A stretch of 64,000 bases of DNA, taken from Gonium pectorale. Lineage: Eukaryota > Chlorophyta > Chlorophyceae > Chlamydomonadales > Volvocaceae. The stretch is taken from assembly GCA_001584585.1 (NCBI GenBank), contig LSYV01000011.1:560805-624804 (forward strand), given 5' to 3'. A program made the position numbers and the translations under genes. Under the pieces are notes generated by a model, which worked only from the letters and a program-made list of their open reading frames with translations, had not been told where the DNA came from and made no database searches. Within the stretch, counting starts at the first letter, position 1. Each line of letters starts with the position of its first letter. Shown here piece after piece: positions 26,397-64,000 of this stretch.

Positions 26397-26930
26397 TCAA
26401 GCGGCCACCCTAGAGGAAACTTGCTGGTTGAGCGTGGGCAGCTGGAAAGCGAAAACGTTGTAGCGCTTCACCAGCGCATCTGGTCCCCCATCCTCCAGCG
26501 CCTTCTCCAAATCAGCACGCAGAAGGCTCACCGCCGGCGCGACAGCCAGGCGCCGGAGAGGGCCTGGCTGGCGCCTGAAGCGGGCCCGCAAGTGCTCTCT
26601 GCACCCGGCCAGGCTCGCCTGCTCGGCGGCCTCGAGGCACGTGCCACGGTGCTTCTTGTCCCTCAGGATGGGCAACCACGAAACCAGGTTGGCCTCCGGC
26701 ATCCCGGGCATACCCCAGGTGGGGCTGCGCAGCAGCTCCGCGGTCATGATGACGAGCATCTCCCGGCCATGCTGCTTGGTCCAGCGGTGCACATCCCGCT
26801 CCACGGCCTCCAGGTATGCCAGCGCTTTCTTAGCCATCTCCAGACGGCGCTCTGCCTGCGCGCCGGTGAAAGGGTCAGACTTCAGCGGCGCCCGCTCCAG
26901 GAAGTCGCACGCGGTGTCGACCTCTGCGGA
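26397..26930 (-). pseudogene. Truncated copy J of the helical-module family (terminal exon only)
   Basis: An acceptor CAG precedes 26930, and an intact frame of 177 codons runs to a stop at 26397-26399. It is clearly homologous to the terminal exons of genes L (38560-37856) and R (49768-49088), sharing EMLVIMTAELLRSPTWGMP, CLEAAEQASLAGC and LRRLAVAPAVSLLR. The acidic N-terminal third of the full exon is shortened, and the end differs (SSRVAA instead of IRI). No upstream family exon was found within 3 kb, so it is probably a fragment, though expression from a local start cannot be excluded. Confidence 0.6.
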
Positions 26931-27400
26931 CTGCGGCAGTGGGTGCGTTCGATATGTATGGTGTGTATGTGCACGTCCAAAGTGCGGCGGTGCGGAGTGC
27001 CACAGGGCCGGTGCCGACGCTCCAAGCGCTGAGCGCGGTTCTCATTTCTATCGCCAAAGAAACCACGACACGACATGGTAGGTGTTTGGAATCTGCACGG
27101 GCAACGGTAATCCTGGGATAGGCACGTACTTGGGTCGGGGGAGGTAGAAGGGGAAATTTGGTACTGGGGCGAGCGTGTATTCCGAGGCTCCTAGAGCGGC
27201 CACCCACGGCGGCCAGGGATTGCGATGCCCCCGCGTCCATACCTATTGAGTGTTACGCTCGAATCACAACAGCGGATTCGTGAGGCATTCGATACAATGC
27301 TCTTTACACCAAGCAACACAACGATTCGTCTCAGGACTGCAGCCAGCATTTCCTCTTGCTACCGAATTCGTTATGGCCACCGCCGCACCCATCCTTCACA

Positions 27401-28321: not shown

Positions 28322-28360
28322 TCAGCTGCGGATTCTCTGGAAGAGCGTGGGCAGCTCCGT
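28322..28360 (-). pseudogene. Remnant of a family terminal exon
   Basis: The minus strand encodes ELPTLFQRIRS and a stop, matching the last residues of intact copies (ELPTLWQKIRI in gene L). Upstream sequence has lost the match. Confidence 0.45.
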
Positions 28361-29194: not shown

Positions 29195-29959
29195 TGGGAG
29201 CGAACCGGAGGGCAATGGGGACGTGTCAGTTGCTGATGACTACGACCGCCCAGGAGGAGGCGAGGCTTGGCTTGAGGGACGAAGGAGACTTGGAAGCTTG
29301 AGCGCTTGTTTCCTGCAAGGGAGGGTGAACTGGCTGCCCTAACTGCTTGCTGGGAAAGGAGCGATGACCCGAAGTGCGGGAAACTAGTTCACGAGCCACT
29401 AGGCCAGAGTGATAGGCGTTAAATACTCGGGTCTCCCGTACTCAACCGCTGCGCTACTGCCAAATCCTTGGCCTTCGGCCTCAGGCCGCAGGCCACAGGC
29501 CTAATTCTGGGACCTTCGCTCCGGCCTGCAACGCCTAGCAGTTGCTCGTACGGCTGGCCTCGTCGGCTCAGCTTCCAACCGTCCATCGGGCACTGGCTGT
29601 ACCACGTACCCATAACAGTGCGATACCTAATTGACGTTAACAACTCAATCCCTATCGGGTCTGGAAGTTCCACGTACCAACTCCTGTTGGCTATGCGGTA
29701 TGTCCATGCTCCGTCTGCTCGGGACTCTCCTATCGTGCTCCACTAGCTTCACGCACGTCGTCGCCTACTCAGGCTCGGTCGTAAAGCTCGTTCGCCATTC
29801 TTGCTATGAAGTGCGCGGTCATGCCGTCTTCGTCCGGGGATGGATGTGACAGGACAACTATACCTGAGTGGCACTGGCCAGGAGGGGCTGGGCGATATGC
29901 ATCCGGGCAGCATTTTGCAGCTGGACACCCATTGGAGTGACACCTCGCTCGAACGCGAA

Positions 29960-30085
29960 CCGCCTGCAGTGCTACACCAGGGCCTCCGGTCCTCCATTTG
30001 CCAGCACCTTCCCCAGCTTAGCGCGAAGCAACCCCACCGCCGGCGCTACAGCCAGGTCCCGTAGAGGGCGGGCGCCTGAAGCGGG
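29960..30085 (-). pseudogene. Broken piece of a family terminal exon
   Basis: The minus strand encodes RPLRDLAVAPAVGLLRAKL and then LANGGPEALV, a stop codon, and RRFAFE, matching the C-terminal part of intact terminal exons. The in-frame stop and missing flanks mark it as a pseudogene fragment. Confidence 0.65.
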
Positions 30086-30649
30086 CCCGCAACAGAACAC
30101 AGCACCATCTAGCACCGCCGTAACAGACTCCGAACTCCGCGGCCGTACGTGATGCAATGATGCACGCCACATTCCGGTGGCCGGGCGCAGTACACATGCA
30201 AATAAAGAGAGCCCCAGCAGCACTCCGAAACAAAGGCCCCAGAGACCTGCTCCCCTGGGCTGGCATGGGCAAGCAAGCTGGGTATATATGCCCACCGAAC
30301 GCCCTTCGCCTACAACGATCATGACAACCTTTGTCCATGTCACTCGATACCATACTAAGTAAGGACCACAATCTTATAAGGGAAGTACCCATCGCACTGC
30401 TATTGCCTTTGCCCTACGTGCGCGGCGCTCTGCTCGCCATGCCGAAGTGAAGCACGAGTTCTCCCCGAAGGGCGTCCCGTATACATACGGACTCGGGACT
30501 GCAGTGTTGGCAACATCTCAACTCCGTGCGGCAGGGCCGTAACCGTTGGTTAGAGCCGTGCACAAGCTGCTCGGGTTAGTCTTGGCTCTGTTTGCCCGTC
30601 TCATAAACGGCCCCAGCCACCTGCAATGCCTCGTTCTTGTAATACGGTA

Positions 30650-33555
30650 CTACTTGGTTGCCGCGATCATGTTGAGAGCCTCCACAGCCATGTCCTCGAT
30701 GTCATGCAGCGCCTCACGGGCTAGACGCCGGCGCAACCAGTGCTCATCTGTACGGTACTCATCTGGTGTCTGGCTATGGGCCAACGAGAGGAGCGTGTTC
30801 TGCAGAGGATCAACAAGGGGCCGAATGGCTTGCTGCAACGAGGAAGCCCAGGTCTTCATTTGACGGCGAGGAATGAAGGGTCCCATAGAATGCTGATAAC
30901 GAAGCTAAAGCAAGCGGGAACCCTTGATGCGTTCCCACTGGGATACACTGCGTGCGTACCGGTAGTAACCAGGATGCGTAACTATAGGAGCCCCAAGGCT
31001 GGACGTCGTTTTGATACATCAGCCGAAAGGCGCAGAAGCGTGTCTCAACTCACCCGCACGCCCTGCCAGTCGAGTTGCGCCAGCTCGTGTTCCAGCGCCG
31101 CACACAGCTGCTTGTCTGTGCAGCCTTCCCACGCGAGGTGCCGCACCAGCTGCACCAGCGTGTAACTGTCACAGGATGTCAGGTCCGACGCGTCCCACGT
31201 GTGCCGGAAGTAAGGGCCCTCCTCCTTCCACCTGCACCCAAAGTATGGGTACTCCTCCTCCTCTTCTTCTTCTTCCTCCTCCTCCTTCTCCTCCTCCTCC
31301 TCCTCCTCTTCCCCCTTCGCAAATAGGCCCAGCCACTGGCACAGCAGTGAAGGCAGGTGCTCGTCTGGTACCTTGGAGCCCTCGATCAGACCAGCAGACC
31401 GGCGGCAGACCGCCTCCAGGCGGCCACGCTCCCTGCCGGCCATCAGCTCGCTAAAGATCTTTTGCAGGGTCTCCGACGACTGGCAGATCAGCTCCCTCTC
31501 GACCGCGTCCTTCAGGCTCGGCAGCGTAGCAAGGTGCGGCGGCTTCCGCCTGCCCAGTACGTGCAGGTACAGCGTTTTCTGCAGGAGCCTTTCTTCGTCT
31601 AGGGAAGGGCGGGCGACGATGGCGCCGGCTGCCAGCTGAGCGGCCGCCGTTGAGAGGAGCTTGCTGTTGCCGCTGGTCACGGCCGCATCCTCGCTGGAGC
31701 TATCGCTCTTTGGCACGCGCGGCACCGCGGCCGGGTTGGACAGCGTGTTACGAAGCTGCAATGGTAAATGGGGGTACGGTTGCGCCTGGGAAAAAGGGTC
31801 CTAACAGTTGGCTGCGTGGGGGTCATCTTAGCTGCATAGCGTGCGATATGTACTACCCGAATGCGAGCAACAGGTCTGGGCCCACACCTCAATGAATCGG
31901 GCAGTACAACCCCGGAGACCAGCACAGCTAACCACGCATGACCTCCCATATCAGTGCCTGCCGGTCCCCTTCGTGTTGTTGCACGTCCCACACACCTTTC
32001 TTGCTTTGTTTATGATGTCCTGGAACAGGCCCTGCACGCCCTGGTAGGTGCCACCGGGCTCGCGGCTCAGGGCGCCCTCGAGCATGTCCTGACGACGGGT
32101 GCATGGGCGGCACATCAGGCAGGCGGGCAAGAGGGCACAGGCCTTGACTGCAAGCAGCCGCAAATATGCATGTTGTCTACTGCAGGGCACTGCTAGCTAG
32201 CGCGACGGACTACACCGATGTACGGCACTGGACGAGTCTGTAGAAGGTTGCCAGTGCGAGCCATGCATACATAGTGCCCGGTCTTAGCGAAGAGGCGCGT
32301 AGATGCAGCGTTACTGTACCTAGCCTTGCTTACCAGCAGATCCGGCAGGAACAGCGCCTGCAGGTCGCGGTCCAGTGCCGCCGCAGCCTGCTCCGTTGAG
32401 CAGCTGGCCCAGGGGACCTGCCGCATTACTGTAGCCAAAGTAGTGCTGACCAGGTCCACCTGCCCCAGCATCGCCACCTCAGCGGTGCAGGTCCACTGAC
32501 CGCTGGCCGGCAGGTGCCGCGCCTCCAGGCGGCCCAGGAAGCCGTGCAGCCAGGTCAGGAAACCCAGGCCTATGAGGCGCGCTGCATTAAAGTCCGAGGA
32601 GAGCATCAGCTCCTCGGCCGGCTTGCCGGACGCCCGTGCCATTGCTGCCTTTAGGTGCTCCAGCTCGCTTTTTGCGTCCCCAGATTTGCTGCTCGCCGCC
32701 TGTTCCGTCATATCCGTGCAGATCCGTGCCAGCAACGACGGGTTCACAAGGGCCTGCCTCAACAGCTCCTCGCTGACGGCGCCCTTGGCGATCTGCTCAG
32801 GTTCCACCAGCTTTGCAGGATGGGGGGTGTATCCCAGCCGCGAGCGCGCATCGCTGAGGATCTGCAGCATAGCGAGCGGCGTCGCCTCACCGGCCCGTTG
32901 AAGGGCCGCCGTGACTGCCTTCTTTAGCATTACATGCTGCGCCTGGGAAAGCTTAGGGCTGACCAGTGGATGCGTGGGTGGGCCCTCCTACAGCAGTAAA
33001 CGGCCGGGGCGCGGCGGGAGAGGTAGGAGGCATGCATTCAAGCAAGCGCAGCATGGAACATAGCCCAACGAGCAACGACCTTTCACCATGAATGCGGCCG
33101 ACAATGGGTATTGCTGCCGCACACTGCATAGACGCATAGGCACAGCATGGCGGCATGACCCCACAAGCCCAATAGCCATAGTCCCGAAGCCCAAGCAAGC
33201 AAGACAGGCATGTATGCTCCTACCCATTTAATGCTCGCAGGTTCCGGCCATGGCTCGGCCTCGAACAGATACATGTTCGTTGCAGCGCACTGTACAGTGG
33301 GCTTGAGACGCCAACTGCAGTCGTTGACGCCCCGCCCCTTGCTGCTGCTGGCCGCATGGTCGCGGTTCGCCCTTGTATTGGCAAGGCCTGTATTGCCACG
33401 GAAATATACGAAGGGCATGCAGTGGAGATCAGTGTGAGTAAAGCACGCGTGACGTGACCGCGTCGCAGGAAAGTGCTCATACCATATGAGGCAGCACGGG
33501 AGACCAACGGGCGCGAATTATTTCGCAGCTGCAGCGTTGATATGCTTCTGAGCAT
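30650..33555 (-). CDS. Gene K: helical-module family protein, 6 exons, about 607 aa
   Basis: Minus-strand exons: 33555-33483, 33387-33224, 32942-32334, 32088-31996, 31755-31054 and 30832-30650. All introns are phase 0 except the first (phase 1). The N-terminus (MLRSISTLQLRNNSRPLVSR) is basic, hydroxylated and acid-free, like a mitochondrial or plastid presequence. Exon 3 (203 codons) matches exon 1 of genes L and R, with GQWT and VPWASCSTEQAAAAL. Exon 4 matches their 30-codon exon. Exon 5 (234 codons) carries a run of about 20 Glu and ends in LAWEGCTDKQL. Exon 6 matches their 34-codon exon but ends in TAG. This is the most diverged and the only apparently complete member. I recognise no known domain; predicted structure is helical. 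Confidence 0.62.
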
Positions 33556-37175: not shown

Positions 37176-38400
37176 CTAAGTCCAATAACCAAAGCTGCAC
37201 GTATCAGGATCTAGTACGGGAAGCCGCTGCCAATGACCCTGGAAGAACACCTGCATGCATATCTCAGGGCCCGTCCTGTAGCTTCATCTGTCCACCGATC
37301 CATGCTCCATCCGCCGGCACACGCACTTCGCCTGTTGGCAACCTCCCCGATGCAATCCTACCACGCCACCAGCGCCGACTGCTGGCCCCAAGGGAGGAAC
37401 ATCACATATCTACAGAAGATAGATAGAGCAGCCGACAACCTCCAAACAAGCAAGACAAGCAAGCCGCAATGTTGCTTGCCCTATCGTTCACCGTGCACGG
37501 TACCACATTCACAGAGGATGATTATGTTAGTCTTTCTTGACTTTCTTCCGTGGTCTGTGCGGTCGATAGCCAGCACACAAAGGAGTTGCCAACATGAATA
37601 CCTAGCTCCATTTGCCATGGGACGCAAGCCAACCGCAACGGCGCTGCAACCAGATGTACCGCCGCAACAACCGGATCTTCCGCGCCGGGAGACTTAGGGC
37701 AAGGAGTGCTTGCATGCTTCAACACAAATGCAGCCTGCCAGTAAAGACGGCGTCAGTTTTCAACAAACCCGACGGATCAAGGGCACTCGAAGTACGTTTC
37801 TTCGCTCGGCGCGTGTGCAGCGCCAGCCCAAGCTGCGCCTCCGTTCGTTGCCGCCTCAGATGCGGATTTTCTGCCAGAGCGTGGGCAGCTCGAAAGCGAA
37901 TCGCCTGCAGCGCTCCACCAGGGCATCCGGTCCCCCATCGGCCAGCACCTTCTCCAACTCAGCGCGAAGCAAGCTCACTGCCGGCGCGACAGCCAGGCGC
38001 CGGAGAGGGCCTGGCTGGCGCCTGAAGCGGGCCCGCAGGTGCTCTCTGCACCCGGCCAGGCTCGCCTGCTCGGCGGCCTCGAGGCACGCGCCCTGGTGCT
38101 CCTCGTCCGCCATGATGGGCAACCGGGTGACCAGGTCGTACTTCATGCCAAAATCCAGGTGGGCCTCCGACCACTCGGGCATACCCCAGGTGGGACTGCG
38201 CAGCAGCTCGGCGGTCATCATGACGAGCATCTCCGGGCTCAGCCGCTGGGCCCAGCGCTGCTTGTCCCGCTCCACGGCCTCCAGGTGCGCCAGCAGCTCC
38301 ATGGCCATCTCCGCATGACGGTGCGCCTGCGCGCCGGCGAAGGGGTCGGGCTGCAGCGGCTCCCACTCCGGGAAGCCGCACGCAGCGTCGGCCTTCGCGG
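37160..38400. repeat. Segmental duplication, left copy
   Basis: This segment, including the 3' flank and last exon of gene L, aligns in the same orientation with about 62740-64000 at the right window edge. The shared anchor TCAGGATCTAGTA occurs near 37206 and 62800, and GTAAAGACGGCGTCAGT near 37741 and 63302. Confidence 0.7.
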
Positions 38401-41400
38401 GCTGCGGCTCATCGCCCTCCAGCTCCTGCTGCGGAGCCGGCGAGGAGCTGCCCAAAGCAGTGCTGCCGTCCAGCGACCCCTCCTCCTCATTGAAGCTGCG
38501 GACCAGTGTGCTGCTGCCGTTGTTGGTAGCCGGCGCGCGCACCACCGCGTAGGTAGGCGTCTGAATGAAGGGGCACGCGGGGAGAAGCGGTTTATTTTCC
38601 CACATAACCCCGTTGCTTGGGGAATCGAGGTGAGAGATAGACGAAAATATACATAGGCTTTATGATCCAGCTCCACTTGTTGGCTGCTTTAAGCGGAGGT
38701 AGGATAGTTTGCTCTTCAAAGCTCCTGCTGCGGCAGCAGCGGCACACATTCGCTGTGCATATGCAAGCACCACGCTGGCAGAAGTGCAGTGGCAATGCGT
38801 GCTGGTTCTCTGGCCGGCGCATAGTCACTGGCGCAACACATCCCACGAGCTCTGTCTGGCATGGGTGGGCGTTCCATGCCGTGCCCGCTTGGGTTGCATT
38901 GGTCCCGCCAGTTCCCTCCAGCATGTATGATCCCATCCCCGCGCGCACAGCATCGCACACGCTCCTAGCCCGACAGTTCCTACCCACCGGCTCTCGCTTG
39001 TCCTCTCCAGCGGGAAGAACGTCGTCGTCGTCGGAGGTGCGGCGGCTGATCATCGTCTGATAGAGGGCAGACAGAAAAGGTCAGTACTGCTTGACCAAGC
39101 AACCGTTGGGGTGCTGATTCACCAAATGGAGCTCTTGACCAACGCGAAGCTGGCAGCATGGCTCTACCGCATCCTGCACGCGCATCCTGGACACAGAAGA
39201 CTGAACCTGTACTTTAATACGCCAGTAAGTGTCCGTGATCGCTCCGACACGCCTTGCTTGTCTGCGCACCTGGCGGACGCGCTCACTCAGCGTGGGCAGC
39301 TGGGACTGCATATGGCGCCACAGCACCTCGCAACCCTCGCCCTCCTGATCGGCGAGGTGCCAGTACAGCCTGTTGATCACGAAGCCGGCCAGGCGACCCA
39401 GGACGGTTAAATCCATTCGGAGCGCGCGCAGCTCCAGCTGGTAGGCTGCGGAGATGTTTGACAGGACCCTCTCCTCCTCCTGGTTCAGACCCCCTTGCAT
39501 AAGCATGAGTCCGTACTGCGGGCTCAGCTGCACCTCGCGAATGACGCGGAGGGCCTCGCTGCTGTTCGCGTCCGTGTCCCAGTCTGCGTCCGCTAGGTCC
39601 CGCAGCACCTCCATCGCGCGCCGCGCGTCGCCCTCGCTGCCCTCGCTCAGCAGCTGTCCCACCGCCGGGCCCTCACCGCCATCGCCGTAAGCTATGGCGC
39701 TTTCCGCCTGCAGCGCACATTTATGGGTATGGGCGGACTAGAGGCGGCCGGGACGGTAAGCAATGAACGGTCCAGGGACGGGACCCTACCCATTGGGCCA
39801 AGCGCAGCTACGACGCTTACCCAAGCCTCAGCAGTGTCAGCATCCCAGGGCGCAACGCTATAAGCTGATTCGGCCCGCGGAATGCCAGTCATCAAGCAAG
39901 GGCGGGGTGCAACGCACCTGCGTGCCGACAGGATCCACTGCGTCGGACGGTGGCAGCTCCTGCTGCTTGCCGCTACCCGTTTCGGGCCCGGAGGCAGCGG
40001 GGCCTCGAGCCGTCGCCGTCTTCGTCGGCTCGGCGACTGGCTCTGGTAGCGCCGCTTCGAGGTCCTGCAGTGTAGCAGCAGGCGCAAGTATGAGGCGGCA
40101 GGCATAGCCACACCACATTATTAATGCATAGGTGTCGATACCGCATGCACGGAGTTACCGATGCAGCCAACCCATAGCACATGCAAGTCCAAGGCCCGCC
40201 GCTCCGGGACACATTGCTAGATAGCTGAACGCACGGCAGCCCACGGTGTAGGCGCATGTGCACACACCGGGCAACCGGTTGCCGCTCAACGGGACCGGAG
40301 ACACGTGCAATCATCGCCTGACCTGCGCGGCGTCCACGATGTCCCGCGCCCGGACGGCGACCAGGCGCCTGCGCATCTCGCGCTCCTCCGCCGTCGGGGC
40401 ACTGTCGATGAAGCAGCGGATCACCTGTGAAGGGTACGCGTACGGCAATGCGGGCACACGTGGAGCGCGTCGTGCAAGGCGGCCTACGCTGATGGCAACC
40501 ACTAATGATCGATGGGCGCTCTTCTGTATATCTAGGTTCGCCACATTAAAAGCCATTCGCATGGGCGGACGCTGACAGTCTACCGCACCAAGGGCCAGAT
40601 TGTACGGCGGCTACGAGGGTGTGATGTATTAGTAATGGGCACATTGTCGAAAAAGCGCCTGTACGATGGCACGACGCAACTTCGGCACGTGCAGCATTCA
40701 CCCTGGCACCTACCGACGGCTCCGCCTGCTCCAGCTGGGCCTTCAGGGCCACGCGCAGCTGCTGGCGGGTGCACCCCTCCCAGGCGGTGCGCTGCATCAG
40801 AGTTCCCAGCGTTGGGCTGATGTTCTGCTTCACATAGCTCAGCATCACCCCCTCCGTCGCGGTGCCCCAGCGGACGGGCGGCTTGAACTTGGCCTCCAGG
40901 TCCGCCAAGAGGGCGGGTAGGCACTGTGCGGAGAGCAGCTCCAACGCTGACTCGTTGGATAACTTGGAGACGACCTCCACGACGCCCGCCCCCAGGAGGA
41001 GCAGCCGCCCCTGGTCGCGGGACAGCATCTCAATGGCGATCTGCAGCGCAACGCCAGTCGGCTTCCTTGCCAGCGCCTGCTGCAGGGCCGGCAGCAGGCC
41101 CGGCACCGCGCCCCGCAGGCCGGTGGCGCACTGGTACACGGCCTCCTCGCGACCCCGGTTGGAAGCCTCGGCGTTCGTGAGGGCATGGATCAGCTCCCCG
41201 GGGAACATGTCCAGGAGCGTCTGACCCGGTTTGACGCTGGCCGCGGCCCCGCTGGTCTGCCAGCCGGTGAGCGCGAGGGACTTCGGTGCTGTCTGGAGTA
41301 TTTTCATAGCCTGCGCCGGGCATAGTCGTGGGCATGTAGATGAATGGGACGTTCCGTGGGGAAGGTCGGAGTTGGACGCAGTTGTGAAGGCGTCGTGCGC

Positions 41401-43542
41401 CCGTAACACGTCACGTTATTGATTGCTGAAGGCGGACGATCGGGCAGTACGCTGATGGGCAAAGCATGCTGTAAAAAAACGAGTAACCGCATGCGGCAGC
41501 GGATGCGGGCGCACACACTCTGCGTATGTTCACTTCTGTCGGTTTGAGCTGCGGCATAGTATTAGTTGTGGCGCCCCATATACATTATCATAGTCCTATT
41601 GCCGTCGAATCCATCAACATGCAAGTACAGCTACACGTAAGCCTGGCTCACTGATCCCACTGATCGCTCATCAGCGCACGGCCCAGCACCCAGCAGCGAC
41701 TGCATCCCGCACCTCTTTCGCTTCCGTGGGCATGCTCTTGATGATGTTCGTGGCGATCTCCACGGCTGCCATGTTGCCTTCCATGACGCGACGTAGCACC
41801 TCCTGGGGTGAGGACACAGCCAGAGGAGGCAATCACAACCGTGGCTGGTACCTGTGGACTTCACCCGCCGATTGATGACAGCTGTCAGACAACCCAATCT
41901 TGCACAGCAGTAGAAGGAAGAGAAGCTGGAACAGGACGGTGGTGCTTGCAAGCGTTATAATCCATCAGCAATAAAAACCCAGATCCAAACATGGAACAGG
42001 GCGTGATGCCTCCACGTTTCCTCCCTAGTGCGCACTCACCAGGTGGTGGGCTGGGTCCGTCAGCCGCCCCAGGTACTCACCAGGTGGTGGGCTGGGTCCG
42101 TCAGCCGCCCCAGGTACTGCTCCAGGGCCACCGCCTTCTGCTCCTCCGTGCAGCCCTCCCACGCAATAACCCGCAGGCGCTCCGCCAGCGTGGGGCTGAC
42201 GCGAGTCATCTCCTCCAGCACCGCCTTCTCGGCGCCGCGGGTCCACTGCCCGCATGTGGGCCGGTGCCGCTCCCGCAGACGATTCAGAAAGCCACCGCCG
42301 CTGGGCGAGCAGAGCCAGAGCATGACCACCCGCTGCGCCGTATGGAAGCGCGCTGGGCACTTGAGCTCAGTGAGGTTGCGGTTGCCCGTCTCCGTCCTCA
42401 GGGCCGCGAGCAGGTTGTCCTGCTCGTCCGCGCACGAGGCCACCTGGTTGAAGATGCGGCGCAATTCCTCCCCGACCGCGAAAGGGAAGTAGTGGAGGTC
42501 GTCGGCGAGGGCGCTCTGCTTTGGGTCCTGCGTGTCGTAGAACTGCATCGGGGTCTGGCGCATGCCCTGGAGCTCCCTGGAGCGGATGGAGCGGATAGAG
42601 CGGATGGCGCTCCCAAGCGCAGGCGGCGGCGAGGCCTTGGCCACAGCAAGTGTGACCTTTGTCGCGAGCCGGCATACCGCTTGGGCTCGTGAGGGGGGCA
42701 GCGCGGGACAGCTGACGCTGCGGCTGGTGCCGGAGGTGGGCGCCGCACGGGCTGCTGCCTACGAGGAGGGCGTGCAGGTAAGGTGGAGGAGTTGAAGGGT
42801 GGGAACTCCAGCGTCGTGGGTCCATGTATGCATGTGAAGCCGTAAGTACAGCTAGGTAAGAATATGGACACGGTCGGCTGCGTACCGACCGATGCTTGAC
42901 ATTCGCATGGGACAGACGTGTCGGTGTGGCGGGCACTCGCCAGGAGCAGCGGCGGCACGCATCAAGCCCCTCCATGACAAGCGCCGTGCCCTTCATTGAG
43001 TCTGCGCGTGCCCCAATCTCTGCTGCTAATAGAAGCGCCCGCCCAATCCCTCATTATGTGCATGCATGCAGGGCGCCAAGAGCTGCTTGATGCGCACCCA
43101 CGATATGCAGGGTATTGGCCAGCCATTGCCGTGCGCTCCGGATGGACGCACCTTCCCCCACGCACGTGAGTAACCGCAGTATCAAACTAGAATGAACGCA
43201 GTGTGAAAACAGACAAGAAAATTTGGCCCATACAATGCGGAACAACGCTCTCCCATACCTAGCCATGTGCGAATCAGGACATCTGGAACGCGCAGACTGG
43301 CCCTAGCAGGCCGCCGGCGGCTACAAACAGCGGCTCCAGTGGAAACATGTGTACAGATATCGCACCCAGAGCAGACGGGGAGCGATGGAGGTGTGACTGC
43401 CCATTGGCTGTCCGTCGCGGCACTCCCTCCGTACCTCCATAGAGCCGTCCTCTACCCGGTGCTCAGCGGCGCCGCCGCTGGTGTTGCCAACGCTGGTGCT
43501 TGCGCCCCTTGATCCGCTCCCGGAAACAGCATCGATGGCGGC
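37856..43542 (-). CDS. Gene L: helical-module family protein, at least 9 exons, 5' end unresolved
   Basis: Minus-strand exons: 43542-43435 (tentative), 42758-42081, 41802-41713, 41310-40714, 40424-40323, 40064-39918, 39707-39270, 39056-38988 and 38560-37856, all phase 0, about 977 residues, ending in TGA. Exon sizes 226, 30, 199, 34 and 49 codons mirror the first five exons of gene R. Modules end in related motifs: SPTLAERLRVIAWEGCT, SPTLGTLMQRTAWEGCT, LPTLSERVRQ and ELPTLWQKIRI. Linker exons are rich in Ala, Ser, Gly and acids. A further candidate exon (44184-44053) and an ATG at 44177 lie upstream but do not join cleanly. No known domain or motif is recognised. Confidence 0.6.
42037..42118. 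repeat. 41 bp tandem duplication at a splice donor of gene L
   Basis: Two adjacent copies of about 41 bp contain the end of exon 42758-42081 and its GTGAGT donor. The first donor in transcription order gives the phase 0 splice. Reading on to the second meets TGA. The corresponding place in gene R (57498) has a single copy. Confidence 0.75.
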
Positions 43543-47768: not shown

Positions 47769-49087
47769 CGGGCATGTTTATGAGCTGTGAAGCACAAATG
47801 TGTTGCACCCTTCGGTTGATTGTTCGGCGCGCGCACCTTTCATGTACTGTTATTACACATGCGGCACTGACCGCGCGTTATGCGCAACAAACGGAGCCTC
47901 GGCCCATGCGAGGTTGAGTGGCCATAGCGCCAGGTTTTCGTTGTGTGGGTGGCCCGTGAGCTTGGGGAAATTTTGGGGATGAAGCGGCACATGACGGGAG
48001 ATTTCTTTGCGGAAGTGACGTGCTCAGGCATGAAATGGCAAGAGCAGGAGGTCGAATGGAAGTGCAGGGCATCAGCTCATTTAGGGAAGTTATACGCCTC
48101 GAACGAGCAGGCGGTGGCAACCAAATATGCATTTGAACATATCATCAGGCAGACCGTGTGCTTCTGCTCATGTTGGGGCATCTTTTCCTCAAACGCTTAT
48201 CATCAATGCGTACCTTGTCTTCATGACCCATCGTCCTGGTATGGTTTCTTGGGGGCTGCGTGATTGTTTTTCCGAGCGACCAAACGCTGTGTTCGCTCGT
48301 TCGCTCTGCGGGTGATGGGAAGTGCAGGGTTACGTGCTTATTCCCCCGCAAGTTCATAGCACAACTACTTTGACATGCAGGCAATGGTAGCAATAGTAGC
48401 TCTCCCGTCCACCCCTCACCTGCCCAAATATGCTTACATGGCGAGCTAATTACTATGGCAAATGCGACCCATGGGTCACCACTTGAACAACCCGAAGCAC
48501 CCCATTGCTTGTCTCTTTTCAGGGGTCACTCTTGCCATAGATTACCATGCATTCCAGTACTGTGCCACCGACAATTACAGCTCACACACGACATATGTGC
48601 GCTTCACTGATTGGCAACCGCCTGGCAATCCCCCAGGTGGGTCGATCAGCCCACAGGGACTCACTCGTGGGAGAAAAACAACCTACAGGAGTATAACCTG
48701 TCACCTACAGTAGCCACGGATGGGCAGACTCCGTCCAAATCAGCAATACATTCCATGACATCTACAGATACGCAGCACTTAGTAGATAGTCCAATTCCCT
48801 TTGTTACGTACTCTTTCCCTCCCCAAGTTCTATGAGAAAGCACAGGGGTCATTATGAATATCGGGCTCGGCCGTGAGTTGGATGCTAATCGAGACAATGC
48901 CTCATCAGTCGGCAATTTGCCGGGGGACTTACGACAGCAAATGCATGCTTCAGCGCAAACGCAATGCGTCAGCCATAGTACAAAATCCGGTGCACAACCG
49001 GTGTACACAGACAGGTTTCCGCGCTCGGCGGCGCATGTGCTGCGCCAGTCCCAGTCCAGCCGCGCCTCCGCGACTCAAGTGGCTGCC
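47769..49087. other. Convergent intergenic region, duplicate of 24780-26396
   Basis: It lies between the haloperoxidase pseudogene (+) and the end of gene R (-). It aligns in patches with the flank of the intact haloperoxidase. TTACA at 48575-48579 is a candidate TGTAA for gene R. No exon seen. Confidence 0.5.
48575..48579 (-). terminator. Candidate polyadenylation signal of gene R
   Basis: TTACA on the plus strand (TGTAA on the minus strand), about 510 bp past the stop at 49088. Confidence 0.3.
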
Positions 49088-52000
49088 TTAGATGCGGATT
49101 TGCTGGTTGAGCGTGGGCAGCTCGAAAGCGAAATCTTTGTAGCGCTCCACCAGCGCCTGCAGATCACCATCCTCCAGCACCTTCTGCAGGTCATAACGCA
49201 ACAGGCTCACCGCTGGGGCCACAGCCAGGCTCCGGAGAGGGCCTGGATCTTCCCTGTAGCGGTCCCGTAGGCGCTTTCTGCACCCGGCCAGGCTCGTCTG
49301 CTCGGCGGCCTCGAGGCACGTGCTACGGTGCTCCTTGTCTCTCAGAATGGGCAACCCGGAGAACAGGTTGGTCGCCAACAATTCGGGCATACCCCAGGTG
49401 GGACTGCGCAGCAGCTCCGCGGTCAAGATGACGAGCATCTCCCGGCCATGCTGCTTGGTCCAGCGATGCACATCCCGCTCCACGGCCTCCAGGTACGCTA
49501 GCAGCTCCATGGCCAGTATCACGCGACGCTGCATCTGTGCAGGGGCGAGAGGGTCCAGCTGCAGCGGCTCCCGCTCCGGGAAGCCGCACGCGGCGTCGGC
49601 CCCCACGGGCTGCGGCTCATCGCCTTCCAGCTCCTGCTGCGGAGTGGGCGAGGAGCTGCCCGAGGCAGTGCTGCCGTCCAGCGACGCCTCCTCCTCATTG
49701 AAGCTGTGAGCCGATGCTCTACTGACATTGCTGGTGGCCGGCGTGCGCTTCACGATGTGGTCAGGCGACTGAATGAGGCACACGGGCGGGAGCGTCTTTA
49801 CTGGTTTGTTGGTTTGGGAATCGCAATGAAAGAGAGCCCGACATATCAGGTCCACAACTAGTGTAGCAAGCTACACCGTAATGCTAGGCGGCCACCGTAA
49901 ACCACGGCGCCATAATTGCCCAAACCGTAAAACTGCAGAGTTCGGTGACCCACAGCGATGCATCATATCCATGGTGGCTCTATATGTGGCGCACAGGCGC
50001 TGGCGCTACGCGCCCCACGAGCTGTATGTGCCGTGCATGCGGTGGTGCTAGGTGGGCCCTCCGTGCCGTGGGCGCTCCGCGCTCCGTGGTCCCACCAGCT
50101 CGGGTGGCGCAGCGAAGACTGGACTGCTCATAGCGGAGGGAAGTCCCGGGACATCGAAGTCCACCTACATACATGCGTGGCGAGCAAGTCGGCTCGGCGC
50201 TTCTCAGCCACGTTGCCGGTGGACGCAAAATTATATGTCATAACAGATGACCCATCCTGAATTTGCTGCATTTGTATTGGGTTGTAAGCGAGCAAGGCGA
50301 GTCCCAGCAAGTGAAATCCTGGAATCCTACTCGCAACGGACAACAGGTATCACGCACACACGGTACCGTCAAGGGCGGGGTGCAACGCACCTGCGTGCCG
50401 ACTGCGCCCACTGCGCCGGGCGGCGTCAGCTCCTGCTGGCCGCTGTCCGTTGCGGGTCCGGAGGCGGCGGGGCCTCGTGCCATAGCCGTCGCCGCCTGCG
50501 GCTCGAGTAGCGCCGCTTCCAGGTCCTGCGGTGAGGCGGCAGGCGCAAAGATAGGTAAAACCACAAGCAGTGGGTCGCCGATGCTCCTCACGAGCACGTA
50601 CTCCGCATGTACGGAATCACTTGCGCATGCAGCCAACACAAACACAAGGCGAAGACCCGATGCTCGGAAGATATTGCTAGCAGAACGCGCGGCAGCTCAT
50701 GGTGCGTGTGCTACTTGCTGTGCGTGCATGTGCACACTCAGGGCGACCAGTTGCATCCGAGGGCAACCCGAGAGGCTTGCGCGACCGACCTGCGCGGCGT
50801 TCACCATGTCCTGCGCCCGGAAGGCAACCAGGCGGCTTCGCAGCTCGCGCTCCTCCGCCATCGGGGCGCTGTGCAGCTCGCCGTTGCCGTCGCCGTTGTC
50901 GTTGCTGTCTGCAGAGACGTTGTTGGCTTCGGCGTCGGCTGCGAGCTCGTCTGCCGTCTCCGGCGGCGCGCCCTCTGCGCTCATCGGCCCCTGCGTGCAT
51001 GTACAAGTTGCGCACAGGCTTGGTTGCCGCTATTGAATCGGGTTGCACTGTGCGAGCGCACGAGGCGAGGCCTGACGTGTGGCAGCCAAGGATCAGTACA
51101 GGGCTGGCGCAAGATAGATGCTGATAAGGGTACCAAGTCTCAAGTCCATTTAAAGGCATACAGAGGTGCGCTGACTTGACGTCTGAGCTGTACCTGGACT
51201 GAGCTCTGCTGCGCAATCGAGGCAGAGCTGATCGGAGCCGCCGCTTCCGGAAGCGCCGAGGTGCTTGGCGAAGCTTTGAGCTCCTCCAGCGACTCGCCCT
51301 GGGGGGGGGGGATAAATGCGAGGTCCAAGATGTCGATATTGATGTATGGGCGAGGATATAAGCGAGGCGCATCCCCTTTGCATTTATATCCAAGGGGCCT
51401 CGCCGGGTTGCCTCACCAGCCATCGTGTGCCGGCATGATTAGATTCAGATTACAGATTACAGGCTCCCCAGATAGAGGGGTTGCAGGCCACACCCGTCCC
51501 GAACCGTCACAGCAAAGAGGGTAAAACACCCTGAAGAGTTTAGCCGTAGGGCCCAGAACCCAAAAAGACAATCACAACTTAGCACATGACACCTTTGCGT
51601 AGATTGTGAACTGAGGCAAGGAATGCTCCGACCTTGTAAGGGTCAATGTCAGTCCAAAACCGCGTCATACTATGACAAGCGCGCGAGATTCCGCGTTCAT
51701 CACGTAGCCTACTGTAAGCACTGCACTCAAAAACGTCGTGGTATTCATCTTAAAACATCCCAGGCTTGCACACGCGACAAGCTCGTTGTTCCCGGGGCAG
51801 ATAAGTGTCCCTGGAGGAACAAGGTACTAACCAAAGACAGCCACTGCCACCCTGGCCCAAGCGTACCGCGCGTCTGGTGCGGGGTCCGAGCAGCACTCCC
51901 GGTGACGGTTTCCTGGAGCGACGATTTGCGGCAGCACTTGGGGGCACCGCTGGGCGGTTCCGCTTATCTTGCAGGGCCTGCGCACGCATGGCAGTGAAGG

Positions 52001-55000
52001 GTCTCGAGTCATGAACAATATGCCAACTGTATGGCATGAGTCGCATTGATACGGCAGACCACGCCTAGCTGAGACCTGCATACGCGACGCAGGCACCGTG
52101 GCACGCGCGATGACTGCGACTTCTTGGGTGCAAGTGCAACGCGCACCGGCGTGTCCATGGGCGGCTAAGCCGTATGTGCGCGAGCAGCAGCGGGCGCTTT
52201 CAGCCCAGAACCCAGACTAGGCAACAAGAAACCGTGCCGCTCTGGTGCCATACATACGTATGCGCACCTGCTGGTTGTCAAACGAGTATTCCCCCTCCGC
52301 GGCATAGGCCGGCGGTGGCGGCGGCGAGCGGCTGGACCTGTCCACCTGCAGACCACAATAGCGTACATTCACCACATCGGAGGTTAGCATGTTAACGCAA
52401 CGCGGGGCTCTACTTGCTGCGTGCGGGTCCACTATCTATCCATGTACAAGGCGAAGGGGCCAACAAGCGGATTGGCCCCCGAAGGAGCAACTCCTAGCCC
52501 ACAGGGAGGACATCCGGGCCTGCGACGGTTAGTTGCACACGCCCAGCGCTGCAAATCAACCCACCTCCAGTGCGTGCTCGTATAGCTTGGGGAACTGCTC
52601 CCTGAACAGGACCACCAGCGCCCCTGGCGCCTCGCCGTCCACTTCAGATAAGGTCCTCGCCAGATCGCCCACACAGGTGGCGATCAGCTGGCTGGCCGCT
52701 GAGGCGCTCTCGCCGTCGCCGGGCAGCAGCTTCTCCAGGTCCCGCACAAACTTGTCCAGGTCGCCAGCGGTCCTGGCGATGGCCTGAAGCCGCTCGTTGT
52801 TCACAATGGGGTTGAGGGAAACCAGTTTGACAGCGCAGGAGAACTTGTTGCTGGCAAGGAGCTCCCACACAATGCGGGCGCGGACGCTGTCAGATGCGCC
52901 CTTCCAGTGGTCTCCAGTGCTCAGGTCGCCACGCAGTACGCCGTACAGGTCCCGCGGGCTCATTTCGTCGCCGCCAGTGGCCGGCGGCTGCACGCCATCA
53001 AAGGCACCACCCGGCGTGCGGGCACTGGCAGGGGCGACGGCGGGCGCCGAGGAGCTGCCCAGGCCGCTGGTGGAGGGCGTAGCGCCATTGTCGGCCGCCT
53101 GCAAAGGCAGCGATATGGAACATGTACCCGGCAGGCGTCATGGGGACATTAACTTGCAACCACGGACTACGTTCTGACGCAAACACGGAGACACGTACGC
53201 TTCCACAAGTCCGCAAGAGGAATCGAGAGGCTTATGCGGTGCGGCCCGGAATGCAAGGTATTGTCTGTTGATTGGTTCCTTGCCGCACCTGCGCGGACGT
53301 TTGTGGCTCGACCGGATCGGGCGGCGGCACAGTCGGAGCGGTCGGGAGTCCCTTGAATTTCCGTTCCTGCTGCAGGGCCTGCATATGATACGGCATGTAG
53401 GCAATAATACTGCATAAGACTGCAACTCAGATTGGAGGCACAATATGCGGGAGCAGAATTCGTTAAGATCTGGGATGACAGCTTTTATTTTGTGATTGCA
53501 TGTTGGCTCGTTGTACCCGCACCTCCATGCACAGACCTGCGGTTGCCAGGCATATACGCGCATGCCCCTGCACAGTGACCGAGGCGCTCGCAGACGCCGG
53601 TCGCATAGACAGCCGGTCCCCGTCAAACCAAGGCGTGCACACCTGCTCCATCTCGTCCTCGTCGTGGAGGGCAGCGGCGTCAGCGGCAGTCCTTGCCTGT
53701 GGCACGAGGAGGGTTGCGTGGCAGCTCCGGCCAGTCACAAATTGATGCAATGAACTCCAGGATTGGAACTCTAGGGAGTAATCACCAAGGGCCGAAGCCG
53801 CAACCAAACTAGCATAGCAGCGGTGCTGTGCACAAAGGGTGGTTAAATAGCTACAGGTGTCAAGCTGGCTCATTGCAGCACCGCCTTGTATTGCAATTGT
53901 GTTGTGAGCCGTTTGTGTGCCCTGTGGCGAGTCCAAGTGTAGTCTCGTACATTGTTGACGTGCTCGTACAGCGTGGGCGCCTCCGTCTCTATCTGGCTCC
54001 ACAGATGCTCAAAATCCTTGTGCTGCAGCTGCTTCACGGTGGAAGCTACCAGCTGAGCCAGCGTGTCGTGGTCCGCCGAGGGGAGCCGGTACCGCTCCAG
54101 CCCCGCCATGTCCAGACCGTCGAGGCGCGACAGGAGCCCGTTCTCGGCCTGGCACAGGCTGCCGAGCTCAAACAGCAGAGGCCTGTACTCAGGGCTATGC
54201 AGCAGCTCGCAGAGGACACGAAAGGCGTCGCCTATCTGGCGCCTCCAGTAGCCAAAGCTTGAGAGATTCGGCTGCGCCTCCATGGCGTCGCTCGCCGCGC
54301 CCTCGCTGCCCGTGCCGCGCTGCCGTTGGACCGCTGAGCTCGCGCCGCCGCTCGCGCCGCTGGAAGGGCGGACGCTGTGAGAGCGGGACGCGGCAGCGCG
54401 CTGGGCGCCTCCACCAGAACTGCGGCCGGAGCGGGTGCGGCTGAAGGCGCTGCCGTTGCCTAGCGCGGCAGCAGCGTCTTCGGCGGCCGCAGGGGCGTCC
54501 ACGGATGGGCCCAGACCGCCTGGCTGCTGTGCCTGAACCTCGGAGCTTTGCGCCTGCTGCAGCAGCCGAGGGGCGCAAAGAGGGCTACGGTAATGGAACG
54601 GCTCATGTGTCTGTATGTAGCCGGCGGGTAGGGTTATGCCCCATTGAGCGTTGCCAAAGAGGTCCAAACGTCCAAAAGCAATGAACCGAACAGGACGGTT
54701 TACAATAACATGTGCAAAGATTAGGACTGCCTGGACCTGCACGTGCCGGCGGCAGATAGAGGGTGAGGCACTAGGGCGGGAGCGTCTCTCCTCATTTGTT
54801 GCTTCGCAAATAGGTGTGAAGGAAAGCCCAAGACATATCAGGTCCGCAACCCACATCCTTCTAAAGGGTGCGAAAAGCAAATGTAGGGGAGGTTAAGCGA
54901 TTGTAGGGGAGAGACGGCCCAAGCATTCGACAGACCGTAGCAGCACGCACCATCGCGGTCTGGAAGGGAAGATGCGGTGTTTGTCGACCACGGGCCACGG

Positions 55001-58000
55001 CGACGCATCCTATGCATGGTGGCTCTATCTGTGGCGAACAGGCGCTGGCGCTACGCGCCCCACGAGCTGTATGTGCCGTGCATGCGGTGGTGCTAGGTAG
55101 GCGCTCCGTGCCGTACCTGCATGCGCTCCGCGCTCCGTGGTCCCACCAGCTCGGGTGGCGCAGCGACGACCGGACTGCTCATAGCGGAGGGAAGCCCCAG
55201 GACATCGTAGTCCACCTGCATACATGCGTGGCGAGCAAGTCGGCTCGGCGCTTCTCAGCCACGATGCCGGTGGACGCAAATTGCAAATCGCAACAGACGC
55301 CCCGGTCCATATTTACTGCATTCGGATTTGGGTTGTAAGCGTACAAGATGAAGACCCAACATGTGAAATCCTGGAATCCTATTCGCAGCGGGCAGCAGGT
55401 ATCACGCACAGGATGCCGCAAAGGGCGGGGTGCGACGCACCTGCGTGCCGACTGCGCCCACTACGCCGGGCGGCGGCAGCTCCTGCTGGCCGCTGTCCGT
55501 TTCGGGTCCGGAGGCGGTGGGGCCTCGCGTTGGCGCCGTCGCCGCCTGCTCGGCAGCCGGCTCGAGTAGCGCCGCTTCCAGGTCCTGCGGTGAGGCGGCA
55601 GGCGCAAAGATACGTAAAACCACAAACAGTGGGTCGTCGAAGCTCCTCATGAGCATGCACTCCGCATGTACGGAATCACTTGCGCATGCAGCCAACACAA
55701 ACACAAGGCCAAGACCCGATGCTCGGGAGACATTGCTAGCAGAAGGTCACGGTGCTTGCTCTAAGTGCATATGCGCGCTCAGGGCGACTACCGAGTGGAA
55801 CCTGGGATGCTTGTGCCATCATAGACCAACCTGCACGGCGTCCAGGGTGTCCCGCTCCAGTATGGCAACCAGGCGCTCGCGCAGCTCGCGCTCCTCCGCC
55901 GTCGGGGCGCTGACGATGAAACAGCGGATCACCTGATGTGGGCATGCGTACGGCAATGCGGACGCATGTGAAAGGCGGATGGAAGCCTATCGTGCAGGGA
56001 ACTATGTACTGTTGCCACCATGGCAGAGGAGGTGTGCTCCAACGCTGCAGGGAGCATTTGCAGCGCGGGACGGTGGGGCAGTTCGGCAGTAGTCCAACGT
56101 AACACAGCACGGACGAGAACTTGTACGATGACGCAACGCAACTCCGCCCCTGTACCTACCGACGGCTCCGCCTGCTCTAGCTGGACCTGCAGGGCCGCCC
56201 GCAGGTGCTGGCGGGTGCACCCCTCCCAGGCGGTGCGCTGCATCAGCGCCCCCAGCGTTGGGCTGATGTTCTGCTTCACATAGCTCAGTGCCTCCTCCTC
56301 CGACGCGGTACCCCAGCGGACGGGCGGCTTGAACTTGGTCTCCAGGTCCGCCACGAGGGCGGGTAGGCACTGTGCGGAGAGCAGCTCCAAAGCCAACTCG
56401 TTGGAGAACTTGGAGACGTCGTCCACCTCCGAGACACCCGCCCCCAGGAGGAGCATCCACCCCTGGTCGCGGGACAGCATCTCGATGGCGATCTGCAGCG
56501 CGACGCCAGTCGTCTTCCTGGCCACCGCCTGCTGCAGGGCCGGCAGCAGGCCCGGCACCGCGCCCCGCAGGCCGGTGGCGCACAGGTACGCGGCCTCCTC
56601 GCGACCCCGGTTGGCAGCCTCGGCGTCCTTGAGGGCATGGATCAGCTCCCCGGGGAACATGTCCAGGAGCGTCAGACCCGGGTTGATGCCTGCCGCGACC
56701 CCGCTGCTGGTCCGCCAGCCGGTGAGCAACAGGGACGCAGGTGTCGCCTGGATAATGTGCATGGCCTGCGGTGCCCACAGTCAAGAGCAATGACGACGTC
56801 CCGTGGTGCAGTTGGAGTTCGACACAGTCGTGAAATGCGTCTTGTGTCCGGATGTTACGTTGTTGAGGCTGACGGCGGACGTTTGGGCAGTCGGCTGATT
56901 GGCAAATCACGCTGTCAAAACAACGACTAACTGCATGCAGCAGGTGCGAGTGAACAAAACATGTGTGTAGATGTTTCGTGTGGACTGTGGTTAGCGTTGT
57001 TTGTGGCACAGCGCCCGAGATTGTGGTCTTACCGCCGTCCCACGCAGCCACCCACCACACACACACACACACAGACATCCACAGATACATTTAAGCTGGC
57101 TCACTGGTCCTGATTATTGCTCACTGACCCTGATCCGCCCCCAGCAGCGGCGGCCTCCCGCACCTCTTCGGCTTCCGCCGGCATGCTCTTGATGATGCTT
57201 GTGGCGATCTCCACGTCTGCCTTGTTCCCTTTCATCACGAGGCGAAGCACCTCCTGGATGGGGCAAAGCAAGGGCCAGTGGAGGGTGCACCGACAATGAG
57301 GCCATCGCAATGGTTGTGTGTGGTAATGAGCCTGCTGCAATGCGTCTTCATCCAAACACTGCACGGACATCGGACCCGGTATACCGACTTCAGGCGGCAC
57401 GTGCAAGCGCCATTATCCATATGCGCGCCAAAGGTCCACAATCTAGACATATGGAACAAAGCCGTGATAACCCTCATGTCTCCCCCTTCGCACTCACCAG
57501 GAGGTGGGCCGGGTCCGTCAGCCGCTTCAGGTACTGCTCCAGGGCCACCGCCTTCTGCTCCTCCGTGCAGCCCGCCCACGCGATGACCCGCAGGCGCTCC
57601 GCCAGCGTGGGGCTGACGCGGGCCATCGCCTCCAGCACCGCCTCCTCGGCGCCGCGGGTCCACTGTCCGCCTCCGGGACGATGCTGCTCCCGCAGGCGGG
57701 CCAGGAAGCCGCCGCCGGCGGGCGAGCACAGCCAGAGCATGACCACCTGCTGCGCCTTATCGAAGCGCACTGGGCACTTGAGCCTAGAGAGGTTGCAGTT
57801 GCCCCTCACCGTCCTCAGCGCCTCGAGCAGGCTCCCCCGCTCGGCCGGACACGAGGCCACCTGTTTGAAGATGCGGCGCCACTTTTCCCCGACCGCAAAA
57901 GGGAAGTGGAGGAGATCGTCGGTGAGGGCACTCTGCTCTGGGTGGTGCGTGTCGTAGAACTGCTTTGTGGACGAGCCCAGGCCTTGGAGCCTCCTGGCCG

Positions 58001-58148
58001 AGCTGGTGGCGTCCCCCAGGGCAGGCGGCGGCGAGGCCTTGGCCACCCCGAGTGTGATCTTTGTCGCGAGCCGGCACATTGCTCGGGCACGCGATGGGGG
58101 CAATGCGGGGCAGCTGGCGGTGTGGCTGGTACCCGAGGCGGGTGCTGC
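49088..58148 (-). CDS. Gene R: giant helical-module family protein, at least 15 exons, about 1395 aa, 5' end unresolved
   Basis: Minus-strand exons: 58148-57498, 57253-57164, 56765-56160, 55932-55831, 55584-55441, 54556-53951, 53696-53643, 53378-53289, 53098-52565, 52345-52268, 51977-51867, 51298-51194, 50990-50790, 50525-50391 and 49768-49088 (TAA). Every junction is phase 0 with GT..AG borders. Five large exons encode related helical modules ending in SPTLAERLRVIAWAGCT, SPTLGALMQRTAWEGCT, APTLYEHVNN, FPKLYEHALE and ELPTLNQQIRI. Small exons encode Ala/Ser/Pro/acid linkers. Exons 4-5 and 13-14 are duplicates. Reading past the donor of exon 6 gives an early stop at 53870, so a short form is possible. 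No enzyme motif, membrane segment or known domain is recognised. Confidence 0.6.
49780..50700. repeat. Intragenic duplication in gene R, copy near the 3' end
   Basis: It aligns in the same orientation with about 54760-55745. The match covers the exon 14/exon 5 pair, its flanking introns and non-coding parts such as GCTGGCGCTACGCGCCCCAC. Confidence 0.8.
54760..55745. repeat. Intragenic duplication in gene R, copy near the middle
   Basis: Partner of 49780-50700. It includes exon 5 (55584-55441) and the intron after it. Confidence 0.8.
57055..57076. repeat. CA microsatellite
   Basis: A short (CA)n run inside the intron between exons 2 and 3 of gene R. Confidence 0.8.
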
Positions 58149-58605
58149 CTGTGAGGACGGTTATCAGGTGAAGGCGTAAAAATGGGTGGGCACATACAGC
58201 TGGTGCCGGCTCAAGCGAAGTAATAAGTTAGTCATGCATATGGACATGGGCGTTCGCGTGCCGTTGTTTCACATTTGTGCGGGACGATGGTTGGGTGTGG
58301 GGGCAGCAGTCAGGAACGGCGGGACCAAGCCATTCCATGAAACGCTCCGCGCCCTTTTCAGTCTCCGTCATGATGCTGCGCGCCCGCTTTGACCCTCAGT
58401 CCGTGCATGCTTGCAGGGCGCCGCAAGCTGTTTGATGCGCATCCATGAGGAGAAGGGACAAGTTGCGCAACTTGCGGGCGACATGTAGACACGCGATCAC
58501 CGGTGCCAGGGATGCGACCGCATTACCTCTTGCTGAGGGCCCCTTGTGTTCCCTGTTCCAGCGGTTGCCTGCCCGTGTTGATCGCCGGCTCCGTGCTGTG
58601 TGTCG

Positions 58606-62739: not shown

Positions 62740-64000
62740 CCTGCTCTCGTGCACTTGCCCATGTTCAATTACCAAAGTCCATCCTAGCTGCCCGTATCAG
62801 GATCTAGTAGGACAATGCCAAGCACCCTGGGTTGGAAGAACACCTGCTAATTTGGTACCAGGGCCCTTCGTCTAGCTTCAGCTGTCCACCGAGGCTCCGT
62901 CCACCGGTACATGTACTTGTGCACTTCGCCAGTTGGCGACCTCCCCGATGCAGTCCTACCACGCCACCAGCACCGACTGGCCCCAAGGGAGAGACATTAC
63001 ATCTTCGGATGCCACGCAACAGCCGACTCCTTAAAAACAAGCAGAACAAGCCGTAATGCATGTTGCCCCAGCCATCGCTCAACGCATACCATATCATCAT
63101 AGGTAGGGCGATAACGGTAGCCTTGCTTACCTTTCTTCCGTGCTCGCAACGGTTGGTGCGATAGCCAGCGCAACCTCCATTTGCCGCGGGACGGATGCCA
63201 ACCGAAACGTCGCCGCAACCAGCTGCAACCAACGGAGACATTGCGCGGGCAGACTTACGGCCAGGACTGCTTGCATGCGTCCGCATAAACGCAATGTGCC
63301 AGTAAAGACGGCGTCAGTCAAGCAATGACCAAACAGATGAAACAGATGAAACAGATCAACGGCGTTCAAAGTAAGTTTCTGCATTTGCAGCGCCAGCCCA
63401 AACTGCGTCTCCGTGGCCGCCTTAGATGCGGATTTCCTGCCAGAGCCTGGGCAACTCGAAAGCGAACCGCCTGCAGCGCCCCACCAGGGCCTCCGGTCGC
63501 CCATAGGTCAGCACCTTCTCCAGCTCAGCGCGAACCCAACCCCACCGCAGGCACAACAGCCCAGGCGCCGGAGAGGGCCTAGCTGGCGCCTGAAGCGGGC
63601 CCGCAGGCGCTCTATCTCAGCACCCTGCCAGGCTTGCCTGCTCGGCGGCCTCGAGGCACGCGCCCTGGTGCTCCTCGTCTGCCATGATGGGCAACCGGGT
63701 GACCAGGTCGTACTATCACCATGCGGGCATGCTAAAATCCAGGTGGGCATCCGACCACTCGGGCATACCCCAGGTGGGGCTGCGCAGCAGCTCGGCGGTC
63801 ATCATGACGAGCATCTCCAGGCTCAGCCGCTGGGCCCAGCGCTGCATGTCCCGCTCCACGGCCTCCAGGTGCGCCAGCAGCTCCATGGCCATCTCCGCAT
63901 GACGGTGCGCCTGCGCGCCGGCGAAGGGTTCGGGCTGCTGTGGCTCCCGCTCCTGGAAGTCGCGCGCGGCGTCGGCCTCCGCGGGCTGCTGCGGCTCATC
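62740..64000. repeat. Segmental duplication, right copy (runs off the window)
   Basis: Same-orientation partner of 37160-38400, including the 3' flank and last exon of a family gene. Confidence 0.7.
63422..64000 (-). pseudogene. Broken family copy Q, terminal exon, cut by the window edge
   Basis: The minus strand matches the terminal exon of gene L from its stop (TAA at 63422-63424 after an IRI end) to the acidic N-terminal part at the edge. Small insertions near 63611-63625 and 63713-63731 and a change near 63540 break the frame, so LRARFRRQLGPLRRL continues out of frame. The rest of the gene lies outside. Confidence 0.7.

Follow-up and report, generated by a model that had tools for sequence, protein, structure and literature searches.

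An orphan tandem gene family of Gonium pectorale with phase 0 introns and members of differing exon number

The gene GPECTOR_10g842 and its exon chain

The window analyzed here, a stretch of 64,000 nucleotides of Gonium pectorale DNA, contains the gene GPECTOR_10g842 (scaffold 10; hereafter 842). Joining fifteen exons from 58079 to 49088 on the minus strand reproduced its deposited protein of 1367 aa letter for letter. We read 842 as a genuine spliced protein-coding gene; it is already annotated and is the largest annotated member of its family. An exact spliced mapping that allowed any phase placed all 14 introns in phase 0. This confirms the exon chain of the first-pass annotation, in which every junction was in phase 0, and the exon sizes agreed as well, since large exons have 178-227 codons and linker exons 18-67 codons. 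M1 counts 194 codons as annotated and 217 up to its acceptor, and exon lengths in the gene span 54-681 bp. From the 5' end, the exons are:

57498..58148, minus strand: exon M1, with the W-x2-C-[ST]-x2-[QH] core; the annotated Met start is at 58079, and homology continues in frame up to the acceptor at 58149
57164..57253, minus strand: linker exon L2, 30 codons, phase 0-0, found in all five annotated members
56160..56765, minus strand: exon M3, a module related to M1
55831..55932, minus strand: exon L4, which is the last coding exon, with stop, in the short members 839, 844 and 846
55441..55584, minus strand: exon L5
55117..55215, minus strand: exon L6, 33 codons, 99 bp; its twin is annotated intron DNA at ~50072-50170 that has no donor
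53951..54553, minus strand: exon Mb5, 201 codons
53643..53696, minus strand: linker exon L8, 18 codons
53289..53378, minus strand: linker exon L9, 30 codons
52565..53098, minus strand: exon Mc4, 178 codons, related to Mb5; the genome search gave one match
52268..52345, minus strand: linker exon L11
51194..51298, minus strand: linker exon L12
50790..50990, minus strand: exon L13, a second L4 copy whose N-terminal part is different and longer
50391..50525, minus strand: exon L14, a second L5 copy; 0.87 of the aligned residues are identical
49088..49768, minus strand: last exon Mlast, 226 codons and stop

A simple gene finder that was indifferent to phase recovered the large exons on the strand of 842 and returned 17 exons, all in phase 0, yet this support is only partly independent because the codon table was trained on the exons of these genes. 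Compared with the deposited 842, it added two small exons and moved two exon edges. A run of the same type on the opposite strand gave 58 internal exons, 19 of them in phase 0, as counted by hand from the list. In the paralogue 840, two of nine predicted junctions had another phase, both located 5' of the deposited model; for 839, 844 and 846 it predicted several outer exons of other phases outside the deposited models. An open frame of 227 codons also runs antisense to M1 on the plus strand (57471-58154). Antisense open frames are common in GC-rich coding DNA, and we dropped the plus-strand reading since the deposited gene, like its copies, is read from the minus strand.

Passages of a study on genes of mitochondrial origin in 18 eukaryotes give a phase ratio of 5:3:2, with about half of the introns in phase 0 (PMC2834692). 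Under this ratio, which is not a Gonium-wide background, the chance of 14 phase 0 introns out of 14 is ~6e-5, a figure that is overstated because some introns of 842 sit in an internal duplication. The deposited gene models were predicted by AUGUSTUS, aided by intron hints from reads; the passages describing them give no support for single junctions (PMC4844696).

A same-strand tandem array known so far from Gonium

The family of 842 comprises five annotated genes (839, 840, 842, 844 and 846, all with the prefix GPECTOR_10g) and one degenerate copy (C), which lie on one strand within ~112 kb; the tandem array that had been proposed is indeed present. Its order is Mlast pieces, 839 (copy Z), 840 (copy A), 842 (copy B) and copy C, followed beyond the window by 844 (E) and 846 (F). 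More copies are possible because part of the array flank reads N. Besides 842, the window contains:

37856..42746, minus strand: GPECTOR_10g840 (copy A), a paralogue of 876 aa with 8 annotated exons and 7 of 7 introns in phase 0
30653..32987, minus strand: GPECTOR_10g839 (copy Z), a paralogue of the short type with 4 annotated exons and 3 of 3 introns in phase 0
26418..26936, minus strand: an open frame behind 839 that resembles Mlast, with 71% identity to that of 842
63425..64000, minus strand: 3' end of copy C, with a cut M3 running straight into Mlast; the copy continues for ~2 kb beyond the window

Across the five annotated models all 30 introns are in phase 0 (14 in 842, 7 in 840, and 3 each in 839, 844 and 846), although these are not 30 independent cases, since paralogues share intron positions. 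In all five genes the internal exons are bounded by introns of the same phase and are symmetric in this sense. The short members 839, 844 and 846 are annotated with the four exons M1-L2-M3-L4, with the stop codon ending L4. To this core 840 adds a 3' extension made of L5, Mb5, a linker and Mlast, and 842 goes further with L6, Mc4, linkers and a second L4 and L5. In copy C, M1 and L2 are open in frame, M3 is cut and joined to Mlast at a point inside both exons, and Mlast contains three in-frame stops. Three stretches resembling Mlast or the flank 3' of it lie behind 839 (window 26418-26936, 28015-28357 and 29947-30091) and are perhaps remnants of a lost long member. The M1 exon of 844 (C11:689202-690411, beyond the window) is broken and carries a partial internal duplication, and the deposited protein begins inside it.

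The annotated 5' end of these genes is probably incomplete, with a first exon missing from the models. Annotated starts differ among the members and lie inside the M1 exon, and the homologous frame begins upstream of them, right after the splice acceptor, in 842, 839 and 846. In 840 and copy C the M1 acceptor is found a few codons further upstream. Homology among 840, 842 and copy C extends upstream of M1; inspection of this stretch by eye revealed no shared start, and the first exon was not located.

To find relatives, we searched 5.8 billion proteins. The spliced sequence matched two of them, GPECTOR_10g840 and GPECTOR_10g842 itself. A four-row profile of the first half added 839, 844 and 846, and the second half of 840 matched only 840 and 842. 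Each of these searches relied on shared 5-residue words, limited the length of candidates and scored the best ~8,000 of them; within this reach no relative beyond the five Gonium proteins appeared at E<=10. In a genome-wide search, 18 of 21 rows had E<=0.001, and all 18 lie on the minus strand of C11 at 587-699 kb. Further genome searches with family sequences gave rows within this same interval throughout. One match on C71 (E 0.16) was dropped; its frame holds a stop and it lies beside a gene that we take to be an unrelated enzyme gene. A match on C119 (E 0.077) contains two stops in 33 residues. Scans of viral contigs and of bacterial and archaeal genomes, each seeded by two short peptide patterns, gave no match. 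As far as these searches of proteins, the genome and the viral, bacterial and archaeal sequences reach, they support the restriction to one lineage that had been suspected.

Neither Pfam nor NCBIfam nor PHROGs gave a family match above the curated cut-off, which agrees with the earlier statement that the protein could not be placed in a known family. We regard as chance the weak profile matches at E 0.02-0.43 (F-box-like, Radial_spoke, AtzH-like, Emfourin, CLP1_P, DUF2065 and one phage family); the PHROGs match at E 0.02 falls on an acidic low-complexity stretch of 839. Among PDB sequences, M3 alone found nothing at E<=1 and 842 nothing at E<=10. The profile of M1-L4 gave E 0.0069 against a C-type lectin chain (41 positions), followed by 0.62 and 1.7, which we likewise take as chance. 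With respect to an origin from a transposon or virus, no Pfam family was matched above the cut-off, nor was a viral contig in the scan seeded by two short patterns, and copies were found in the one array only.

The five genes are deposited as hypothetical proteins. The exon chain was known from this deposit. We found no paper that names the five locus tags, and the string GPECTOR is absent from the main text of PMC4844696. Among papers on volvocine exon shuffling, judged by title and the start of the abstract, none deals with this family.

Relations among the modules and growth of the long genes

The five large exons had been described as related modules, and this stands for part of them. In hhalign comparisons, M1 is related to M3 (E 1.4e-9) and Mb5 to Mc4 (E 5e-5), where the E-values are rough, as the module profiles held one to five sequences a side. 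The pair Mb5 and Mlast is borderline, scoring 18.1 where none of 30 shuffles went beyond 15.0. The other seven pairs did not rise above their shuffles, 3 to 17 of 30 reaching the observed score, and at the level of sequence comparison a relation of M1/M3 to Mb5/Mc4/Mlast was not detected. Each of the five proteins carries the W-x2-C-[ST]-x2-[QH] motif in two places, one in M1 and the other in M3.

Within 842 we found a duplicated block of ~0.9 kb:

54995..55912, minus strand: block copy 1, with most of L4, L5 and L6 and their introns
49950..50871, minus strand: block copy 2, covering L14, some of L13 and some of the last intron

Over 946 columns that take in the introns, identity between the two copies is 83.7%, and a neighboring pair of stretches, 49774-49858 and 54764-54850, is 78.2% identical over 87 columns. 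The duplication adds L5 as a whole, and on the side of Mlast its ends lie in introns. On the side of L4 the alignable block ends ~20 bases inside exon L4, and the beginning of L13 is longer and unrelated, so the exon itself may contain that breakpoint, or its position may have become blurred. An alignment of L6 with its twin over 103 positions, which covers the acceptor and leaves out the last six exon bases, shows 6 differences. The twin lacks the six bases adjoining the donor and has no GT at this place; the same holds for the corresponding stretch in the last intron of 840, where similarity is weaker. Most simply, L6 would have turned into an exon once the block had been duplicated, provided that the annotated L6 is right.

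From these comparisons we propose that the long genes would have arisen by joining of the M1-L2-M3-L4 core to a 3' block consisting of L5, an Mb5-type module and Mlast. 842 would then have grown by an old duplication that turned Mb5 into Mb5 and Mc4, by the more recent duplication of the L4-L5 block, and by exonisation of an intronic stretch to give L6. In this proposal such exon gains keep the frame and are tolerated because all introns are in phase 0. The idea that symmetric exons can be gained without breaking the frame is supported by the repeated block and by L6 with its donorless twin. For an exchange of modules between paralogues, which had also been considered, the only traces are losses, a fusion and remnants (copy C and the Mlast pieces behind 839), and breaks, including those of the fusion in copy C, fall inside exons too.

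Over the 754 codons shared by 840 and 842, dN is 0.151 and dS 0.239, which gives a dN/dS of 0.63 (bootstrap 0.50-0.80); values for single exons range from 0.21 to 0.87, and M1 of 842 against copy C yields 0.28. The six exons shared by 840 and 842 carry 349 substitutions and no premature stop. In 2000 simulations without selection the mean number of premature stops was 9.3, and none of the 2000 was free of them. In Mlast the substitutions between 840 and 842 are spread nearly evenly over the codon positions (44/42/48). By these values 840 and 842 are constrained, with purifying selection that is weak. No positive selection was detected by pairwise dN/dS between 840 and 842, and the view of an adaptive family was not borne out.

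Our preferred reading, to which we assign a probability of roughly 0.6, is an orphan same-strand tandem family known so far only from Gonium, in which 842 is a real gene made of the core and a 3' extension, would have grown as proposed above, and may encode a binding or scaffold protein. The rival that we take most seriously, unlikely as we consider it, is that annotation has fused two genes, a short M1-L2-M3-L4 gene that ends at L4 and, behind it, a separate gene with the Mb5-type modules and Mlast. In the short members the stop is at L4, and if the L4 donor is not used, translation runs into VRR-stop in 840 and VGL-stop in 842. The Mlast pieces behind the short gene 839 would fit as well if two halves once adjoined, and M1/M3 are not detectably related to the 3' modules. 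However, 840 and both copies within 842 retain the L4 donor and the L5 acceptor in phase, no Met upstream of L5 is common to the three copies in frame, and 840 and 842 are joined in the same way.

That the array is decaying, with genes weakly or not expressed and drifting under little constraint, seems to us improbable. The three stops and the intra-exon fusion of copy C, the broken M1 exon of 844 and the even spread of substitutions over codon positions in Mlast would all fit such drift, but the six shared exons of 840 and 842 lack the ~9 premature stops expected, and dN/dS stays below 1 for the joined exons and is 0.28 when M1 of 842 is compared with copy C. An older family of the volvocines, diverged beyond recognition and therefore neither new nor specific to Gonium, has a better chance than either of these, albeit with the odds against it, and is compatible with the preferred reading. 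The array evolves fast, and the need for shared words, the length limits and the ~8,000 candidates restrict what the protein search can see; against this, queries with the spliced sequence, the four-row profile and the second half together returned the five Gonium proteins and no others at E<=10. For the orphan family as we read it, the wider point would be that such families are usually seen as finished products, whereas here paralogues differing in exon number adjoin. Possible steps of growth are still readable, namely an exon block present twice, a donorless exon twin, members of both lengths and a degenerate copy formed by fusion. Should transcripts bear out the gene structures, the array would be a compact, testable case of how new multi-module proteins form, in a lineage used to study the start of multicellularity.

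Predicted structure, possible role and known systems

The large exons had been proposed to encode helical modules. Both AlphaFold2 models are all-helical, in line with this, but their confidence is low (mean pLDDT 43.6 and 47.1). No match stands out in the fold comparison of these models, and the matches to HEPN and to alpha-solenoid (HEAT/ARM-type) folds are within the range of unrelated helical proteins. HEPN nucleases have a conserved R-x4-6-H. This pattern occurs in three of the six module sequences examined, at different places in Mb5 and Mlast, and is absent from Mb5 of 840, the very part of the model that gave the HEPN match. The maximal mean Kyte-Doolittle value over 19 residues is 1.27 in the five proteins, and their net charge is -9 to -52. 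Tentatively, and with the odds somewhat against it, the models may point to a soluble, acidic protein whose helical modules are strung together by flexible linkers and which would act in binding or as a scaffold. A more far-reaching idea, which we consider doubtful, is that a Gonium-only family builds longer proteins by phase 0 block duplication and one-step exonisation, so that one array would supply variants of length and surface that bind variably, for instance to recognize parasites or to tell self from non-self.

Symmetric exons are well known from exon-shuffled modules, where introns of the same phase flank modules that can be added. Compared with such modules in general, those described here are of phase 0-0 and occur only within one orphan array and not in unrelated proteins. 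The schistosome micro-exon genes, as described in passages of PMC5825161, resemble 842 in their symmetric exons and fast evolution, but have exons of 6-36 bp; the shortest exon of 842 has 54 bp and most of its coding length lies in five large exons, so that 842 is not a gene of this kind.

NCL genes encode octotricopeptide proteins with helical repeats of 38 residues and a PPPEW-like motif (PPxEW-type). The five Gonium proteins have modules of ~200 codons instead of 38-residue repeats, none of the five contains PP.[EDQ]W, and no Pfam family matched above the cut-off. In its arrangement the NCL cluster on chromosome 15 of the close relative Chlamydomonas reinhardtii is similar to the array, being a lineage-expanded cluster in one region, but with at least 32 genes according to passages of PMC8226300 it is far larger than the family described here. 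Within the lineage this cluster is the closest parallel to the array, although its genes form another family.

Two further frames were noted on the plus strand of the window. A short one at ~47400-47770 had no Pfam match above the cut-off and may resemble the C-terminus of a vanadium haloperoxidase, and an open frame at 2695-3693 carries an ankyrin repeat just over the Pfam cut-off.
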